Assembly: GCF_015354335.1 (NCBI RefSeq)
Contig: NZ_JADKYR010000007.1
Span: 1-64,000, forward strand
Direction: 5' to 3'
From: Methylophilus sp. 13
Lineage (GTDB): Bacteria > Pseudomonadota > Gammaproteobacteria > Burkholderiales > Methylophilaceae
Length of the DNA: 64,000 bases
A program made the translations under genes and the position numbers. The first letter of the stretch is position 1, and each line of letters starts with the position of its first letter. This document shows positions 12,231 through 20,537 of the stretch, in pieces. A model generated the notes under the pieces. It was given only the letters and a program-made list of their open reading frames with translations. It had not been told where the DNA came from and did not search any database.

Positions 12231-13124
12231 ATGATGACGATAAAAAATTCCCCCGCTAGCCAACCGATGTTGAGCATGACCGGCTTTGCGGCCACCGAAA
12301 GCCGCTTTACTGGCGGGCTGCTGCTAATTGAGCTGCGTGCAGTCAACCACCGTTATCTCGAGCTCAATGTCAAAATCGATGACAACTTGCGCCAGTTTGA
12401 GGCGCAAGTACGTGAATTGCTGCAGTCCCGCCTGGGACGTGGCAAGGTGGAATGCCGCATCAATCTCAAAAGCGATGCCGCGGTGGCTAACCTGACGCTC
12501 AATCCTGAGATGGTCGGGCAGATCGCGCAAACCCTGGCCGCGTTACAGCAACATTTTCCGCAGGCGCAACCCGTCAATCTGGTTGAAGTGCTCAAGCTGC
12601 CAGGTGTTTGCCAAACGGAGAGCATCGATACCGAGGCCATGGCGCAGAGCCTGCTCAATGGCTTGTCGCAGGCCATTGATGAACTGATTGCCGCCCGCCA
12701 GCGTGAAGGTGAAAAACTCAAGCAAGTGCTGCTCGACCGTCTGCAAGGTGTCCGTGAGCAGATCAGCATCGTCAAACCGCTGTTACCTGCCCTGATCAGC
12801 CAATATCAGGATAAACTGACCACCAAACTGCGTGAAGCCATGCAGGCAGAGGATGACCGCGTACGTCAGGAAATCGTGCTCTACGCCCAACGGATTGATG
12901 TCGATGAAGAGTTGGCGCGGCTCAATGCCCACATTGTTGAAATGGACCGCATCCTCACGGCTGGCGGCACCATGGGCAAAAAGCTGGACTTTTTGATGCA
13001 GGAAATGAACCGGGAAGCCAACACACTAGGCTCCAAATCGGTGGCGATTGAAACGACACAAGTGTCCATGCAACTGAAAGTGTTGATCGAACAGATGCGT
13101 GAACAGATTCAGAATATTGAATAA
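12231..13124 (+). CDS. yicC: YicC family endoribonuclease
   Basis: A 297-residue member of the YicC family, whose Escherichia coli member is an endoribonuclease acting on RNA. The conserved start MLSMTGFA occurs 12 residues in, and the C-terminal block LDFLMQEMNREANTLGSKS is typical; between them is a long helical region rich in Glu and Gln. The ATG at 12231 has a CAGGAG ribosome-binding site 5 bases upstream, but the start at 12267 would give the family's usual N terminus. A possible -10 box TACAAT lies at 12203-12208. It is divergent from the kinase gene. Confidence 0.9.
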   Translation: MMTIKNSPASQPMLSMTGFAATESRFTGGLLLIELRAVNHRYLELNVKIDDNLRQFEAQVRELLQSRLGRGKVECRINLKSDAAVANLTLNPEMVGQIAQTLAALQQHFPQAQPVNLVEVLKLPGVCQTESIDTEAMAQSLLNGLSQAIDELIAARQREGEKLKQVLLDRLQGVREQISIVKPLLPALISQYQDKLTTKLREAMQAEDDRVRQEIVLYAQRIDVDEELARLNAHIVEMDRILTAGGTMGKKLDFLMQEMNREANTLGSKSVAIETTQVSMQLKVLIEQMREQIQNIE

Positions 13125-13143
13125 ACCCTATTTAACACTCGGT

Positions 13144-13186
13144 TTGCACCAAAACCGTGATTCGAGAGTGCACCATTTAGGTGCGC
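13144..13186 (+). promoter_or_regulatory. Tandem NtrC-like binding sites upstream of the Anbu operon
   Basis: GCACCATTTAGGTGC at 13170-13184 is a dyad with perfect 5-bp arms that fits the NtrC enhancer consensus (GCACC-N5-GGTGC). A weaker related site, GCACCAAAACCGTGA, occupies 13146-13160, with the two sites offset by 24 bp. They lie 65-100 bp upstream of a consensus sigma-54 promoter, the usual distance for an enhancer pair. The sequence match is seen directly; binding by NtrC is inference. Confidence 0.65.
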
Positions 13187-13247
13187 TTTCTTTCTGAAAC
13201 CCGCTCATATAAAACATAAACTCATGATTTAAATGGGTTTTACAGGC

Positions 13248-13263
13248 TGGCACACGGCTTGCT
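13248..13263 (+). promoter_or_regulatory. Sigma-54 (RpoN) promoter of the Anbu operon
   Basis: TGGCACACGGCTTGCT matches the -24/-12 consensus TGGCAC-N5-TTGC(A/T) at every conserved position, with the GG and GC dinucleotides 10 bp apart. Transcription would start near 13274, about 33 bases before the ATG of the ATP-grasp gene. NtrC-like sites upstream point to nitrogen control. Confidence 0.75.
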
Positions 13264-13306
13264 CTTGTTTAAATGAATTTTACAAGTAAGGCAAAGGTCC
13301 AGCACG

Positions 13307-14800
13307 ATGACGCAAACGGCCAAACAGTTTTTTGATGAAATGCAGGGCTATGGGGGCAATGTAAGGGCGATTTACCAGGCCTATAACCGCTGGTTGGCGA
13401 ATGTGCCTACCCAGCAACTGGCGGCCAAACGCGCAGAAGCAGAAGTCCTGTTCCGCCGCGTCGGCATCACGTTTAACGTGTATGGTGAAGAAGATGGTGC
13501 CGAGCGCCTGATTCCGTTTGATGTGATTCCGCGCATGATTTCGGCCAGTGAATGGGCGCATTTGTCCAAAGGTGCCGTCCAGCGCGTACGCGCCCTCAAT
13601 ATGTTTCTGCATGATATTTATCATGATCAGGAAATCATCAAGGCCGGCATTGTCCCGCACAGCATCCTGACCAATTCCCAATACCGCCCGGAAATGGTGG
13701 GTGTGACTGTGCCTAACCAGGTGTATGCGCATGTGGCAGGGATAGACCTGGTCCGCACCAGCGAGTCGCAGTTTTACGTACTGGAGGACAACCTGCGTAC
13801 CCCTTCCGGCGTGTCTTATATGCTCGAAGACCGCAAGATGATGATGCGGCTGTTCCCGGATTTGTTTAAAAAATACCCGATTGCCCCGGTAGAGCATTAC
13901 CCCAGTGTACTGCTGAACAACCTGCGCTCGGTCGCCCAGACCGGCGTCACTGACCCGACCGTGGTATTGCTCTCACCCGGCGCTTACAACAGCGCTTACT
14001 TTGAACATGCCTTCCTCGCCCAGCAAATGGGCATAGAACTGGTGGAAGGCCAGGATTTGTTTGTCCGTAATAACGCCGTCTATATGCGCACCACGCAAGG
14101 CCCGCAAAGGGTGGACGTGATCTACCGCCGCATTGACGACGACTTCCTCGACCCTCTGGTGTTCAAGCCCGATTCCCTGTTGGGCGTGCCAGGTCTGCTC
14201 TCCGTTTACCGCAATGGTGGCGTCACATTGGCCAACGCTGTAGGCACCGGCGTGGCCGATGACAAGGCGACGTATATTTACGTGCCGGAGATGATCAAGT
14301 TCTACTTGGGTGAATCCCCCATCTTGCAGAACGTGCCTACGTATCAACTCAGCAAGGAAGATGATCTGGCCTATGTGCTGGATCATCTGCCCGAGCTGGT
14401 CGTCAAGGAAGTGCAGGGCTCTGGCGGCTACGGCATGCTGGTAGGCCCCACAGCCAGCAAACAGGAAATTGAAGAATTCCGTTTACGCATCGTCTCCAAA
14501 CCCGCTAACTACATCGCGCAGCCGACGCTGGCACTGTCAACCTGCCCAACGCTGGTCGACCAGGGCATTGCACCGCGTCATGTGGATTTACGGCCATTTG
14601 TGCTGTCTGGCAAAACGGTCAGCGTGGTGCCGGGTGGCCTGTCGCGCGTAGCGCTCAAAGAAGGGTCACTGGTGGTGAACTCCTCGCAAGGGGGCGGCAC
14701 CAAGGATACCTGGGTGCTGGAGCGGGACGATGTCAGTGCAGAAACCGTGCAGTCGCAAATGGCTGCCCAACAAGCAACGCAAGAGGCCGTTATATGTTAA
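13307..14800 (+). CDS. Circularly permuted ATP-grasp protein of the Anbu cluster
   Basis: A 497-residue protein of the circularly permuted ATP-grasp family (formerly DUF404/DUF407). Recognisable blocks are LNMFLHDIYHDQEIIKAG, DNLRTPSGVSYMLEDR, VDVIYRRIDDDFLDPL, VKEVQGSGGYGMLVGP and DLRPFVLSG. Such proteins are predicted to ligate carboxyl groups to amines with ATP, perhaps building a peptide or peptide-like tag; the substrate is unknown. It is the first of four genes that travel together in many proteobacteria (ATP-grasp, alpha-E, transglutaminase, Anbu protease). The ORF overlaps the next gene by 7 bp. The sigma-54 promoter and NtrC-like sites lie just upstream. I kept the ATG at 13307, although the only ribosome-binding candidate is a weak AAGG. 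Confidence 0.92.
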   Translation: MTQTAKQFFDEMQGYGGNVRAIYQAYNRWLANVPTQQLAAKRAEAEVLFRRVGITFNVYGEEDGAERLIPFDVIPRMISASEWAHLSKGAVQRVRALNMFLHDIYHDQEIIKAGIVPHSILTNSQYRPEMVGVTVPNQVYAHVAGIDLVRTSESQFYVLEDNLRTPSGVSYMLEDRKMMMRLFPDLFKKYPIAPVEHYPSVLLNNLRSVAQTGVTDPTVVLLSPGAYNSAYFEHAFLAQQMGIELVEGQDLFVRNNAVYMRTTQGPQRVDVIYRRIDDDFLDPLVFKPDSLLGVPGLLSVYRNGGVTLANAVGTGVADDKATYIYVPEMIKFYLGESPILQNVPTYQLSKEDDLAYVLDHLPELVVKEVQGSGGYGMLVGPTASKQEIEEFRLRIVSKPANYIAQPTLALSTCPTLVDQGIAPRHVDLRPFVLSGKTVSVVPGGLSRVALKEGSLVVNSSQGGGTKDTWVLERDDVSAETVQSQMAAQQATQEAVIC

Positions 14801-15738
14801 GCCGTACCGCAGATCATTTATATTGGATGGCACGCTATATCGAGCGTGCTGAAAACGTGGCCCGTGTGCTGGACGTGACTTATAACATGTCCCTGTTGCC
14901 TTCAGACAGCAGTAACGAAGCCGAACTTTGGGATGCCGTGCTTGAAATTGCCGGAATCCGCGACATTTATGACAGCAACTACAAAGAGCTGTCGGCCACC
15001 AATGTCATCAAGCATCTGGTCATGGATAGCCAGAACCCGTCCAGCATTTACAGCTCATTACGCAGTGCGCGTGAAAATGCCCGTGCCGTGCGTGTGGCCA
15101 TGACCACCGAGACCTGGGAAAACATGAACACACTGTGGATTGAGTTTGGGCAATATATCAAACAGGACCTGACCCAATCCGGCTTGAGCGAATTTTGCGA
15201 ATGGGTAAAAAGCCGTTCGCACCTGTTCCGTGGCGTTTGTTTTGGCACCATGTTGCGTGACGAGGCCTTTAGCTTTGTGCGCCTGGGCACCTTTATGGAA
15301 CGCGCAGACAATACTGCCCGCCTGCTGGATGTGAAGTATGAGTACCTGATGCCCATGCAAGAAGCCAATGACGGCGCGGTGGATTACTACGAATGGAGTG
15401 CGGTGTTGCGCTCGGTCTCGGCGTTTCAGGCTTACCAAAAAGTCTACCGCGATGCCATTGAACCGACCAAGGTGTCTGAATTATTGATTCTGCGTGAAGA
15501 CATGCCGCGGTCTCTGCATGCCTGTTACGCCGAGATCATGCCGATTTTGCGCCAGGTCGCCGGCAGCCGCCACACCGAAGCCGAGCGGCTGGCTGGCCAG
15601 ATGCATGCCAGACTGCATTACGGCCGCATGCTGGATATTTTAAAAGATGGCGTACACCATTTTCTGGATGAATTTATTCTGGCAAACCGCAAACTGGGCG
15701 AGGAAATACAACGTAATTTTTTAAGCGCCACGGCCTGA
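14794..15738 (+). CDS. Alpha-E domain protein (DUF403)
   Basis: A 314-residue all-helical protein of the alpha-E family. The signature opening LSRTADHLYWMARYIERAENVARVLDV and the later RLGTFMERADNTARLLDVKYE repeat are both present, suggesting an internal duplication of a helical unit. The biochemical role is unknown; the family is always linked with the permuted ATP-grasp protein and is thought to act with it in amide-bond formation. The start overlaps the end of the ATP-grasp gene by 7 bp, so the two are translationally coupled and probably made in fixed proportion. Confidence 0.92.
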   Translation: MLSRTADHLYWMARYIERAENVARVLDVTYNMSLLPSDSSNEAELWDAVLEIAGIRDIYDSNYKELSATNVIKHLVMDSQNPSSIYSSLRSARENARAVRVAMTTETWENMNTLWIEFGQYIKQDLTQSGLSEFCEWVKSRSHLFRGVCFGTMLRDEAFSFVRLGTFMERADNTARLLDVKYEYLMPMQEANDGAVDYYEWSAVLRSVSAFQAYQKVYRDAIEPTKVSELLILREDMPRSLHACYAEIMPILRQVAGSRHTEAERLAGQMHARLHYGRMLDILKDGVHHFLDEFILANRKLGEEIQRNFLSATA

Positions 15739-15819
15739 CGCCTGACACACGATTGCCATGAACCCCTCATGCGCAGATTGCTCTAAGACAGCACTGCGCT
15801 TTTTTATTTGGGAAGCGAC

Positions 15820-16656
15820 ATGCGGTTAACCATCGAACATCAAACCCAATATGTGTACAGCGAAATGGTGCCATACACCATACAGCAACTGCGCCTGACA
15901 CCCCGCACCGACCCGCGCCAGCAAGTCAGACATTGGGAGATCAAGGTAGCCGGGCAGCTGACCCCGTTTGCAGATGCGTTTGGCAACCTGGCACACACAC
16001 TGGTCGTCGACCAGCCGCACCAGGCTTTATTGATCACGGTGAGCGGTGAGGTCGAAACCGGCGCCGCGACCAGCGCAGCCACGGCAAGCTTGCCAGTGAC
16101 TGTTTTTTTGCGAGACACGCCACTCACCCAGCCCGATGATGCCATCATGGCCTTTGCCAAAGACTTTGCCCATGCGCCCGCGCAAGCGCTGATGCAGGCC
16201 TTGCGCGACCGCATGCAATACAGCAAGGGCGCCACCGAGGTGAACACCCCCGCCGCACTCGCCTTTAAGCTGGGCAAGGGCGTCTGCCAGGACCATGCGC
16301 ATGCTTTTATCGCCTGCTGCCGCAGCCTGGGCTGGCCCGCCCGTTATGTGAGTGGTTACCTGTTTACCGAGGATGGCAGCCTGATGCAAACCCATGCCTG
16401 GGTAGAAGTTTGGCAACAAGAGACATGGCTGGGGCTGGATGTCTCCAATGGTATTCCGGTGGATGAAACCCATGTCAAATTGGCGGGCGGTCTCGACTAC
16501 CGCAGTGCCAGTCCGGTGACTGGCTCACGTATGGGTGGCGGCCAGGAAGGCATGGCCAGCATGGTGAGCGTCAACCGCCAGACAGCGCTGAGCGAAGCGC
16601 AACGGCAGGCACACTTACAGCAATTACGTGAGCAGGCACAAGCCGCCCAGCAATAG
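15820..16656 (+). CDS. Transglutaminase-like cysteine protease of the Anbu cluster
   Basis: A 278-residue protein with an N-terminal beta domain (MRLTIEHQTQYVYSEMVPYTIQQLRLTPR region) and a transglutaminase-like core. The catalytic triad is visible: cysteine in GKGVCQDHAHAF, histidine in MQTHAWVEVW and aspartate in GLDVSNG. Such proteins are expected to cleave or transfer amide bonds. I chose the ATG at 15820, which has GGAAG just upstream; a TTG start four codons earlier is possible. It follows the alpha-E gene after 81 bp and precedes the Anbu gene. The C-terminal tail is rich in Gln and Ala. Confidence 0.9.
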   Translation: MRLTIEHQTQYVYSEMVPYTIQQLRLTPRTDPRQQVRHWEIKVAGQLTPFADAFGNLAHTLVVDQPHQALLITVSGEVETGAATSAATASLPVTVFLRDTPLTQPDDAIMAFAKDFAHAPAQALMQALRDRMQYSKGATEVNTPAALAFKLGKGVCQDHAHAFIACCRSLGWPARYVSGYLFTEDGSLMQTHAWVEVWQQETWLGLDVSNGIPVDETHVKLAGGLDYRSASPVTGSRMGGGQEGMASMVSVNRQTALSEAQRQAHLQQLREQAQAAQQ

Positions 16657-16708
16657 CAAGTACTCGCATGCTATGATATTTGTTAACTTGATAAATGACT
16701 GACTTGAG

Positions 16709-17443
16709 ATGACTTACTGTGTAGGAATCCTGCTTGAACAAGGTCTGGTATTGGCCTCAGACACGCGCACCAATGCCGGGGTGGACCAAGTGGCGATTGC
16801 ACCCAAGATGCACGTGTTTGAGGTGCCGGGCGAACGTATGATTGTGCTGCTGACCGCAGGCAATCTGGCGATCACGCAATCCGTGGTCAACCTGTGCCGC
16901 GAACAACTCAAGTCGGCAGAAGGCCATGCCAATCTGCACAATGTGCACTCGATGTTTGAAGCCGCCAGCGTGGTGGGCGCGGCCATGCGCAGCGTGCATC
17001 AGCGTGACGGCAAAGCACTGAAGGAGCACGGCATAGACTTTAGTGCCAGCGTGCTGGTCGCAGGGCAAATCAAGGGCGAAAAGCCACGCCTGTTTAATGT
17101 GTATGCCGCCGGTAATTTTATCGAAGCGACCCCGGATACGCCTTACCTGCAAATTGGTGAAACCAAATACGGCAAGCCGATCATTGATCGCGTGATCAAA
17201 CATCAAACCAATGTCACAGATGCGGTAAAATGCGTGCTGATTTCTTTTGACTCCACCATCCGCAGCAATATTTCTGTGGCCTTACCGATTGATTTGATGA
17301 TATACCGAACTGATACTTTAAGCGCCGGCAAACGGCAACGCCTGACAGAAGATGACCCTTGTTATGCCAGCATCCGTAAAGGCTGGAGCGAGGGCCTGAA
17401 AGCCGTGTTCTCTTCCTTGCCTGACCCTGAATGGTGTGCATGA
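16709..17443 (+). CDS. Anbu, proteasome-type Ntn-hydrolase (ancestral beta subunit)
   Basis: A 244-residue protein of the bacterial Anbu (proteasome-related, HslV-like) family. After the initiator Met the sequence TYCVGILLEQGLVLASDTRTNAGVDQVA gives Thr2 as the candidate N-terminal nucleophile, with Asp and Lys equivalents in SDTRTNAG and IAPKMHVF. Anbu assembles into rings or helical spirals; its physiological substrates are not known. The gene ends the four-gene Anbu cluster, and its stop codon overlaps the gmk start (ATGA), linking this nitrogen-regulated module to gmk and the stringent-response genes downstream. Confidence 0.93.
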   Translation: MTYCVGILLEQGLVLASDTRTNAGVDQVAIAPKMHVFEVPGERMIVLLTAGNLAITQSVVNLCREQLKSAEGHANLHNVHSMFEAASVVGAAMRSVHQRDGKALKEHGIDFSASVLVAGQIKGEKPRLFNVYAAGNFIEATPDTPYLQIGETKYGKPIIDRVIKHQTNVTDAVKCVLISFDSTIRSNISVALPIDLMIYRTDTLSAGKRQRLTEDDPCYASIRKGWSEGLKAVFSSLPDPEWCA

Positions 17444-18054
17444 TGAGTCACGGCCATTTATTTATTATCTCTGCCGCCTCTGGCGCCGGTAAAACCAGCC
17501 TGGTGCGCGCCATGCTGGCGCAAGACCCAATCCTGAAACTGTCTGTTTCGCACACCACGCGTGCACCGCGTCCGGGTGAAGAAGACGGCATCCACTATCA
17601 TTTTGTTTCAGAGCCCGCGTTTCTGGAGATTCTAGACGCCGGCGGTTTTCTGGAAAGCGCGCATGTGCACAGCGCCCGCTATGGCACCGCGCAAAGCGAA
17701 GTCGAAGGCGCCCTGGCTGCCGGCCGCGATGTGATCCTCGAAATCGACTGGCAAGGCGCACAGCAGATCAGAACCTTATTCCCTGACGCGACCTCTATTT
17801 TTATTCTGCCGCCTTCCATCGAAGCGCTGGCGCACCGCCTCAACAGCCGCGGCCAGGACAGTGAAGCCGTGATTGCACAACGGCTGTCCGCCGCGCGTGA
17901 GGAGATGCGTCACGTGCATGAGTTTGATTATGTTACAATTAATGATAATTTTGACGTGGCCTTGCAGGATCTGATGGCGATTGTTCGCGCCCAGCGCTTG
18001 CAGTTAAACCGCCAGGTAGCCTGCCACGCGTCATTGATTCAATCCCTTACCTAA
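17440..18054 (+). CDS. gmk: Guanylate kinase
   Basis: A 204-residue nucleotide kinase converting GMP to GDP. The P-loop is [11 protein letters not shown] near residue 10, and [21 protein letters not shown] carries the GMP-binding arginines and tyrosine; [10 protein letters not shown] is also typical. Two ATG codons are adjacent (17440 and 17443); the first overlaps the Anbu stop by 4 bp. The order gmk-rpoZ-spoT-recG is the same as in many proteobacteria and ties GTP/ppGpp metabolism to transcription. Confidence 0.96.
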
Positions 18055-18098
18055 GCCGGCGCACGCCGCACTTCAGGTTCACACAGATAGAGGTTTTT

Positions 18099-18314
18099 AT
18101 GGCACGTATTACTGTCGATGATTGCTTGGACAACATCCCTAACCGTTTTCAACTGACGCTGGTCGCGGCTTATCGCGCCAGACAATTGGCCAATGGTTCC
18201 GATCCACTCGTCAGTGGTTATTCACAAAAAGACAAACCGACCGTGATTGCCTTGCGTGAAATTGCTGCCGGTAAAATCGGTGTAGAGATCTTAGAGAAAA
18301 AGGGCCACGCTTAA
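18099..18314 (+). CDS. rpoZ: RNA polymerase omega subunit
   Basis: A 71-residue omega subunit, shorter at the C terminus than the 91-residue Escherichia coli protein. The conserved start [19 protein letters not shown] and the block [10 protein letters not shown] are intact. Omega helps RNA polymerase assembly and forms part of a ppGpp-binding site. An AGAGG ribosome-binding site precedes the ATG. It lies between gmk and spoT, 6 bp before the latter. Confidence 0.96.
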
Positions 18315-18320
18315 GCAGCC

Positions 18321-20537
18321 ATGCCCCACACCCAAGGCGACCATGCCCATCGCAAGTCCAAACCGCCGCTGAGCGAAGCGGACTTGCTCCCCGCTGACCG
18401 TGAGGATTCCCCCCTTACCCAGCTGATCCGCAAATATCTCAACGAAGAAGAAGTGCAACTGGTCTGGCAAGCGTATCGCTATGCCGACCAGGCGCATGCG
18501 GGACAAACCCGCAAAACCGGTGAACCGTATATCTCGCACCCGGTGGCGGTGACCTGTATTCTGGCTAAACTGCACCTGGATCTGCCTACCCTGCTGGCCG
18601 CATTGCTGCATGATGTGGTCGAGGATACCGAAGTCGACAGTGCCGCCATTGCCGAGCGCTTTGGCAAACAGGTCGCTGACCTGGTAGACGGCCTGACCAA
18701 GCTGGATAAGGTCGAGTTGCAAACTGCCATGCAGGCACAAGCGGAAAACTTCCGCAAAATGCTGCTGGCCATGAGCCAGGATGTCCGCGTGATCCTGGTC
18801 AAGCTGGCCGACCGGCTGCATAACATGCAAACACTGGACGCCATGCGGCCAGAAAAGCAAAAGCGCATCGCCCGTGAAACGCTGGATATTTATGCGCCAA
18901 TTGCCAACCGGCTGGGCCTGAACCCGATTTACCATGAGCTGGAAGACCTGAGCCTCAAGTATTTATACCCCAACCGCTACCACGTGATCGACAAAGCGAT
19001 CCGGCTGGCACGCGGTAACCGTAAAGAAGTGATCAGCAAGATCCTGGAGGCCATCCAGAACCAGCTATTGCAATACGGCATTGAGTACGATGTACAGGGC
19101 CGCGAAAAGCATCTGTTCAGTATTTACAAAAAGATGAGCGAAAAGTCGATGAAATTGTCGCAAATTAACGACATTTACGGTTTTCGCGTCATCGTCAAGG
19201 ACAACGCCGCCTGCTATCTGGCGTTAGGGGCGCTGCATGCGCTTTACAAACCTATTCCCGGCCGCTTCAAGGACTATATTGCCATCCCCAAGGCCAACGG
19301 TTATCAATCGTTGCATACCACCCTGTTTGGTCCGTTTGGCACGCCGATTGAGGTACAAATCCGCAGCCAGGAGATGCACAACATTGCCGATGCCGGGGTG
19401 GCCGCGCACTGGCTGTATAAAACCACCGATGCCCACCTGACCAAGCTGCAACAACAAACCCACCAGTGGCTGCAACGCTTGGTAGAAATCCAGACCGAAA
19501 GCGACGATAGCCACGAATTTCTGGAGAACTTCAAGGTCGACCTGTTCCCGGACGAGGTCTATGTGTTTACGCCCAAAGGCAACATCATGGCCTTGCCACG
19601 TGGCTCGACGGCGGTGGATTTTGCCTATGCCGTCCACTCGGATGTGGGCAATAGCTGTGTCGCGGTCAAGATCAATAATGAGCTGGCACCGCTACGCAGT
19701 GAAATGCGCAATGGCGACCATGTGGAAATCATTACTGCCCCGCTGGCCAAACCCAATCCGGCCTGGCTCAATTATGTGGTGACCGGCAAGGCGCGCTCGC
19801 ATATCCGCCATTACCTGAAAACGGTCAAGGTGGAAGAGTCGGCACAACTGGGCGAGCGTATGCTTAATGTGGCGTTACGCGCCATGCATATCGAGCCTGG
19901 CGACATTAGCGACAAACAATGGCAAAAAGTCATGAATGACTATGGCAGCAAAACGCGCCAGGCCATTCTGACCGATATCGGCCTCGGCAAACGTAACAGC
20001 CTGATGGTAGCGCACCAGCTGCTGGCCCATCCAGCCGAAACCGAAGATAAAACCGGCAAGGTACTCGATACGATTACCATCCGTGGCTCCGAGGGGATGG
20101 CGGTTCAGTTTGCGCCCTGCTGCCGCCCGATTCCTGGCGACCCGATTCTGGGCTTTATCAATAAAGATAAAGGCCTGGTCATTCACACGCATGATTGCCC
20201 CGCCATCCGCAAATTCCGGCTGGATCCGGAAAAATGGCTGGATGTGGAATGGGATGCGGATCCGAAAAAACTGTTCAGCGTCAACTTGCGCATCACGGTG
20301 GTGGATGAGCGCGGCATGCTGGCCAAGATTGCGGCCACCATTTCCAATGCAGAAGCCAACATTGACAATGTGAGTGTGGAGACCAGCGACGGCAGCCAGT
20401 ACTCCAACGTCAACTTTACCTTGCAGGTCCACAACCGCGTGCATCTGGCCACCTTGATCCGCAACCTGCGCAAGATCCAGCAGATCGTGCGTATCAACCG
20501 CGTCAAAGGCAACCAGGTGGAGCAGCGCATCCAGTAA
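18321..20537 (+). CDS. spoT: Bifunctional (p)ppGpp synthetase/hydrolase SpoT
   Basis: A 738-residue RelA/SpoT-family protein. The hydrolase HD domain is active-looking (LLHDVVEDTE near residues 96-104), which separates it from RelA. It is followed by the synthetase domain (GYQSLHTTLFGPFGTPIEVQIR near 330), a TGS domain (VYVFTPKGNIMALPRGSTAVDFAYAVH near 413), a helical and Cys-containing zone (QFAPCCRPIPGD) and a C-terminal ACT domain (VVDERGMLAKIAATISNAEANI near 657). It makes and degrades the stringent-response alarmone. The rpoZ-spoT-recG order supports the name. Confidence 0.95.
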   Translation: MPHTQGDHAHRKSKPPLSEADLLPADREDSPLTQLIRKYLNEEEVQLVWQAYRYADQAHAGQTRKTGEPYISHPVAVTCILAKLHLDLPTLLAALLHDVVEDTEVDSAAIAERFGKQVADLVDGLTKLDKVELQTAMQAQAENFRKMLLAMSQDVRVILVKLADRLHNMQTLDAMRPEKQKRIARETLDIYAPIANRLGLNPIYHELEDLSLKYLYPNRYHVIDKAIRLARGNRKEVISKILEAIQNQLLQYGIEYDVQGREKHLFSIYKKMSEKSMKLSQINDIYGFRVIVKDNAACYLALGALHALYKPIPGRFKDYIAIPKANGYQSLHTTLFGPFGTPIEVQIRSQEMHNIADAGVAAHWLYKTTDAHLTKLQQQTHQWLQRLVEIQTESDDSHEFLENFKVDLFPDEVYVFTPKGNIMALPRGSTAVDFAYAVHSDVGNSCVAVKINNELAPLRSEMRNGDHVEIITAPLAKPNPAWLNYVVTGKARSHIRHYLKTVKVEESAQLGERMLNVALRAMHIEPGDISDKQWQKVMNDYGSKTRQAILTDIGLGKRNSLMVAHQLLAHPAETEDKTGKVLDTITIRGSEGMAVQFAPCCRPIPGDPILGFINKDKGLVIHTHDCPAIRKFRLDPEKWLDVEWDADPKKLFSVNLRITVVDERGMLAKIAATISNAEANIDNVSVETSDGSQYSNVNFTLQVHNRVHLATLIRNLRKIQQIVRINRVKGNQVEQRIQ

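Follow-up and report, generated by a model that had tools for sequence, protein, structure and literature searches.

We analyzed a 64,000-nucleotide stretch of DNA from Methylophilus sp. 13 (the window) and found that its Anbu operon is preceded by a sigma-54-type −24/−12 promoter element and an NtrC-type enhancer dyad, an arrangement that recurs across the Methylophilaceae and before glnA in the same genome. We propose that 13146-13263 is the control region of an NtrC/sigma-54 (RpoN) operon switched on by nitrogen limitation, a reading drawn from sequence comparison to which we assign a probability of about 0.86. A first-pass annotation of this DNA had suggested nitrogen limitation as the inducing condition, and conservation inside and outside the family, together with the glnA layout, speaks in favor of that suggestion. 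The same annotation had presented nitrogen control as a real clue to the function of Anbu; the clue is not a new one, because nitrogen induction of the equivalent Pseudomonas putida genes is already in print.

Results

The genes at 13307-17443 encode an ATP-grasp, an alpha-E, a transglutaminase, and a proteasome-family protein, the combination by which we recognized an Anbu operon (Table 1). The same set is described in PMC5666114, where the proteasome-like protein is accompanied by ATP-grasp, alpha-E, and transglutaminase proteins. The name Anbu rests here on the PF00227 match and the three partner genes, no Anbu-specific model having matched. Between the yicC stop and the ATP-grasp start lie 182 bases, which hold all the candidate control elements.

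Table 1 Features of the Anbu operon, its upstream region, and the adjoining genes in the window.
Feature	Position	Strand	Remarks
yicC, upstream gene	12231..13124	+	PF03755, PF08340
Weaker second dyad GCACCAAAACCGTGA	13146..13160	.	8/10 positions
RNA hairpin with an 11-bp stem built around the dyad, followed by TTTCT	13164..13190	+	Possible yicC terminator
NtrC-type enhancer dyad GCACC-N5-GGTGC, GCACCATTTAGGTGC	13170..13184	.	78 bp upstream of the −24 element (start to start)
IHF-like site TAAACTCATGATT, between dyad and promoter	13217..13229	−	8/9 informative positions
−24/−12 (sigma-54) promoter element TGGCACACGGCTTGCT	13248..13263	+	Motif match, family conservation
Circularly permuted ATP-grasp protein, first operon gene	13307..14800	+	PF14403, PF04174
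Alpha-E protein	14794..15738	+	PF04168; overlaps ATP-grasp gene
Transglutaminase-like protein	15808..16656	+	PF08379, PF01841; start uncertain, 15820 used in searches
Anbu, proteasome-like protein	16709..17443	+	PF00227, 36.3 bits
gmk	17443..18054	+	ATG at 17440 or 17443 overlaps Anbu stop codon 17441-17443
rpoZ	18099..18314	+	TIGR00690, over cut-off; possibly reached by read-through
spoT	18321..20537	+	TIGR00691, over cut-off; possibly reached by read-through

The sigma-54 consensus is TGGCACG-N4-TTGCW, and TGGCACACGGCTTGCT fits it at 11 of 12 positions, the mismatch being an A for the G after CAC. The TGGCAC-N5-TTGCT motif reported by the first-pass annotation was thus confirmed, with the GG and GC dinucleotides both in place, and transcription would be expected to start near 13274. 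A promoter scan of 12900-13500 gave no sigma-70 promoter, and a sigma-70 promoter at this place was rejected on that result. TGGCACACGGCTTGCT is the sole exact TGGCAC-N5-TTGCW in the window (0.15 expected). At least one such match appeared in 14 of 100 shuffles of the window, and the 3.1-Mb genome holds 16, including TGGCACACGGCTTGCT, counts that would suit a chance match with no regulatory role. NtrC and IHF sites were scored against their consensus sequences. The perfect GCACC-N5-GGTGC dyad was likewise found as first described, with the promoter motif starting 78 bp downstream of its start. Perfect dyads are not enriched in the genome as such, since the pattern occurs at three places and its reversed control at six. 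Each taken alone, the promoter motif and the dyad are therefore close to chance level; they stand apart from it through their conservation and spacing in relatives.

We examined this conservation, which had been set beforehand as the test by which the proposal could fail, in 120 family genomes. An ATP-grasp protein match was present in 72, and the loci of 69 were used; those of G003 and G058 (contig ends) and G041 (paralogue only) were not taken. A promoter site was defined as at least 10 of 12 positions within 300 bases upstream of the ATP-grasp gene, and such a site was present in 62 of 66 upstream regions, compared with 1.2 expected from shuffles that take no account of kinship among genomes. 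This count leaves out L027 and L070 (truncated or broken) and L051 (short). The four regions below the threshold were L013, L046, L068, and L069, all scoring 9 except L068. The promoter was present in 17 of the 20 genera sampled. A dyad matching at least 8 of 10 positions started 75-78 bp upstream of the promoter in 41 of 66 regions (a count that takes in L051 and leaves out L068, which has no site) and 65-68 bp upstream in four others, and was at neither favored distance in 21; 13 of 19 genera have a dyad. IHF-like sites scoring 8 or 9 of 9 occurred in 50 of 65 regions (16.4 expected), 17 regions reaching the full score (1.4 expected), and 35 of the 50 sites sit 30-31 bp upstream of the −24 element. 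The test thus found the promoter kept, and the dyad and its spacing kept in most relatives. The chance reading is very unlikely, to the point that we give it almost no weight: the promoter is shared by 17 of 20 genera and recurs beyond the family, with preferred spacing and at frequencies far exceeding those in shuffles.

At closer range, we aligned ten Methylophilus sequences (our own and nine others; L003, which is of the same species, and L013 and L014, which are more distant, were left out). Mean column identity was 1.0 for the dyad half-sites, both of which were identical in all ten sequences, 0.98 for the promoter, 0.94 for the surroundings of the ribosome site, 0.92 for the weak copy, 0.82 for the IHF-like site, and 0.65 for the spacer 13185-13216. 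The first-pass annotation had described the two dyads as tandem sites. The second copy does exist, matching 8 of 10 positions, but its distance of 24 bp from the strong dyad is not a whole number of helical turns. It is kept in eight of the ten aligned sequences and degenerate in L010 and L011. The weak copy is thus restricted to close Methylophilus relatives rather than spread across the family.

We then compared Anbu-linked operons outside the Methylophilaceae. Of 42 loci (L268-L309), with Anbu proteins at most 61% identical, eight lacked the ATP-grasp gene within the stretch and were set aside, so that 34 remained. A promoter was present in 30 of these 34 operons (0.9 expected), 33-77 bases before the gene, in regions that include Dechloromonas, Vogesella, Azospira, Roseateles, Rhodoferax, Aromatoleum, and Magnetospirillum. 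Sixteen of the 30 also carried a dyad matching at least 9 of 10 positions (0.57 expected), and an IHF-like score of at least 8 was reached in just 7 of 32 regions (1.0 expected). A fixed dyad distance was rejected as a rule beyond the family, since the position of the dyad varies there. In a class-wide sample, which left out fragments and paralogues of 30-36% identity, a promoter score of at least 10 was found in 28 of 83 upstream regions (1.1 expected), a weaker signal than in the family. Where the genome has Anbu, 26 of 70 loci carried the −24/−12 element, compared with 2 of 13 where it does not. Among 20 of the paralogues found, the fused ATP-grasp cluster had the site in one, indicating that the promoter goes with the Anbu type. 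Our own genome encodes a second, longer ATP-grasp protein (L310, G000:C8:578600-581800; 848-aa frame, 35% identical) without a sigma-54 site. In several relatives (L211, L214, L216, L217, and L218), 1.3-3 kb of DNA separate the transglutaminase and Anbu genes.

The genome encodes the regulators that the proposed control would use. RpoN was identified by PF04552 (E = 1.1e-67), and NtrC by TIGR01818 (716 bits against a cut-off of 558.6), in the same gene group as glnA; across the family, 115 of 120 genomes have rpoN and 105 have NtrC over the cut-off. The glnA promoter of our genome (L075) combines a −24/−12 element, TGGCATGCTTCCTGCT, with dyads starting at −76 and −106. It resembles the Anbu operon in having a −24/−12 element and a dyad starting 76 bp upstream. 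It differs in that its second dyad is equally strong and is placed another 30 bp upstream, or about three helical turns, and in having no IHF-like site scoring 8 or more. Searching the 120 family genomes for dyad and promoter as a composite yielded 68 matches, whereas the reversed pattern yielded one. Counted by nearness only, the 68 divide into 28 at most 2 kb from this ATP-grasp gene, 28 at most 6 kb from ntrC (at least one of which, in G098, lies past the 3' end of glnA), and 12 elsewhere, two of these (G039 and G058) adjoining glnA. Our genome contains four matches: at glnA, at the Anbu operon, before the gene for a urea ABC transporter binding protein (TIGR03427; L208, G000:C8:360744-360826), and inside a reading frame on C7, the last of which looks accidental. 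Matches of the urea transporter kind also occur in G099 and G093. A contrary case is the glnK region (L076 2811-2898), where a perfect −24/−12 element occurs without a GCAC dyad. It lies 87 bases ahead of a gene (product of 320 aa) that is followed by glnK and a likely amtB.

These data bear on whether a real sigma-54 promoter might answer to a different enhancer-binding protein and to a signal other than nitrogen. Thirteen matches to the NtrC model indicate that other proteins of this kind exist in the genome, and the dyad position is not fixed outside the family. However, the same dyad stands at the same distance before glnA, composite matches cluster near ntrC, the urea transporter gene is a further target in the same genome, and the P. 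putida and Burkholderia cenocepacia data discussed below point to NtrC. We therefore consider a different activator improbable, with a small share of the probability, and retain NtrC as the likely regulator.

The dyad also lies within a predicted RNA hairpin (−18.5 kcal/mol, z = −5.3) that begins 40 bases past yicC. This raises the alternative that the dyad is only the terminator of yicC, unrelated to NtrC, and that the −24/−12 element is driven by something else. An 11-bp stem followed by TTTCT would suit a terminator, as would the stem of 10-12 bp found in nine close relatives (including our own genome) with yicC adjacent. Pairing holds for 98% of cells in these nine regions, and base pairs beyond the GCACC core vary in concert. 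Covariation was seen in seven cells with two-sided changes and in a score of 0.273, both unmatched in 500 shuffles, but two of five measures were not striking (three two-sided pairs, reached in 72 of 500; seven further pair types, in 136 of 500). The tail, TTTCTGAA, falls short of the rule of the consensus terminator scan of 12900-13500, which did not list the hairpin; the single terminator-like site that it did list, 13243-13261, is at chance level (0.7 expected).

Comparison across the family separates the dyad from the stem. Seventeen regions combine a dyad with a yicC gene no more than 300 bases away. The eight of these that are not among the nine above have no long stem; they include L013 and L014, which carry the same genus label. 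Where yicC lies further off, a long stem was found in none of five regions, and where yicC is missing from the stretch, in 1 of 22 (L043, 13 bp). In L010 and L011 the half-sites at −78 remain perfect, and the stem measures 5 bp. Because the dyad is retained where the long stem or yicC is absent, we judge the terminator-only explanation unlikely, with only a very small chance of being right. Along with its proposed role as an NtrC enhancer, the dyad probably came to form the core of a yicC terminator hairpin in a group of close Methylophilus relatives. We read the enhancer as having come first, with the terminator function gained later in that one group.

Discussion

Our analysis suggests how the Anbu operon could respond to nitrogen in Methylophilus sp. 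13. We infer that NtrC is the activator: under nitrogen limitation, its phosphorylated form would bind the strong dyad, perhaps aided by the weaker copy, while IHF would bend the DNA at its predicted site. NtrC would then drive open-complex formation by sigma-54 RNA polymerase at the −24/−12 element. The resulting transcript would span the ATP-grasp, alpha-E, transglutaminase, and Anbu genes and probably run on into gmk.

Published work on equivalent or related clusters mostly agrees with nitrogen control. In P. putida, PP_2685-PP_2688 were reported as induced by nitrogen limitation, which was ascribed to NtrB/NtrC (PMC7801951, PMC3325844), and nitrogen induction of the equivalent genes is also given in PMC5666114. 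PP_2685 and PP_2688 rise on nitrate compared with ammonium, and a PP_2688 promoter reporter increased 3.7-fold (PMC8050072). Two results speak against our reading. RNA-seq of an rpoN mutant showed the partner genes still 14- to 20-fold induced and urtA 11-fold (PMC7801951). For PP_2685, the Anbu gene itself, that study gives just a 1.12-fold change in the wild type, whereas other studies do report it as induced (PMC8050072, PMC3325844). The likeness of PP_2685-PP_2688 to the Methylophilus operon lies in the equivalent gene set and the published regulation; in PMC8050072, PP_2685 and PP_2688 each had a promoter construct of their own, so their arrangement seems to differ.

In B. cenocepacia, I35_5080-5083, a cluster of DUF404/407, DUF403, and transglutaminase genes, is reported to be under NtrC and sigma-54 and was down 6- to 9-fold in an ntrC mutant (PMC5491218). 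The account of these genes in PMC5491218 names no Anbu, and they may represent a sister cluster that carries a large transglutaminase. In marine metagenomes, DUF403/404/407 and transglutaminase domains were associated with urea metabolism domains (PMC3597751). Among the matches listed in literature searches on Anbu, nitrogen, and NtrC and on Methylophilus nitrogen limitation, there was no report on the Anbu operon in methylotrophs.

Anbu is a relative of the proteasome, and as of 2017 its physiological substrates had yet to be found (PMC5666114). A promoter of the nitrogen-starvation type across the family and in the Anbu operons of other groups would provide a condition for a substrate search, and the predicted control fits a role of Anbu in nitrogen recycling or peptide processing. 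Our analysis thus extends the P. putida result to methylotrophs and adds a candidate dual enhancer/hairpin and a possible link to gmk-rpoZ-spoT.

This link follows from the position of the cassette. gmk follows Anbu in 24 loci (21 distinct contigs by length), within 90 bases in 23 of them. In ten family genomes the cassette lies elsewhere; in six of these yicC and gmk are neighbors, 23-120 bases apart, the distance is about 1.1 kb in two more, and gmk falls outside the stretch in the remaining two. We conclude that the cassette sits inside a yicC-gmk-rpoZ-spoT block. A crude scan of 14600-18500 found no forward sigma-70-like site. We also note that gmk, presumably essential, has a start overlapping the Anbu stop, with no forward sigma-70-like promoter found before gmk-rpoZ-spoT.

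Nitrogen-driven read-through into spoT would be plausible. More tentatively, in Methylophilus and Methylotenera-like members, nitrogen starvation might raise gmk, rpoZ, and spoT, with one element serving, in close relatives, as both an NtrC enhancer and a terminator insulating the operon from yicC; we regard this combination as possible but doubtful. If true, it would tie the supply of GTP and ppGpp to the Anbu system via a sigma-54 promoter. In E. coli, NtrC activates relA through a sigma-54 promoter (PMC4066584), and the proposed spoT link is similar in that a nitrogen stress regulator feeds the gene of a ppGpp enzyme. Unlike that of relA, the spoT link would run via predicted read-through of the operon.
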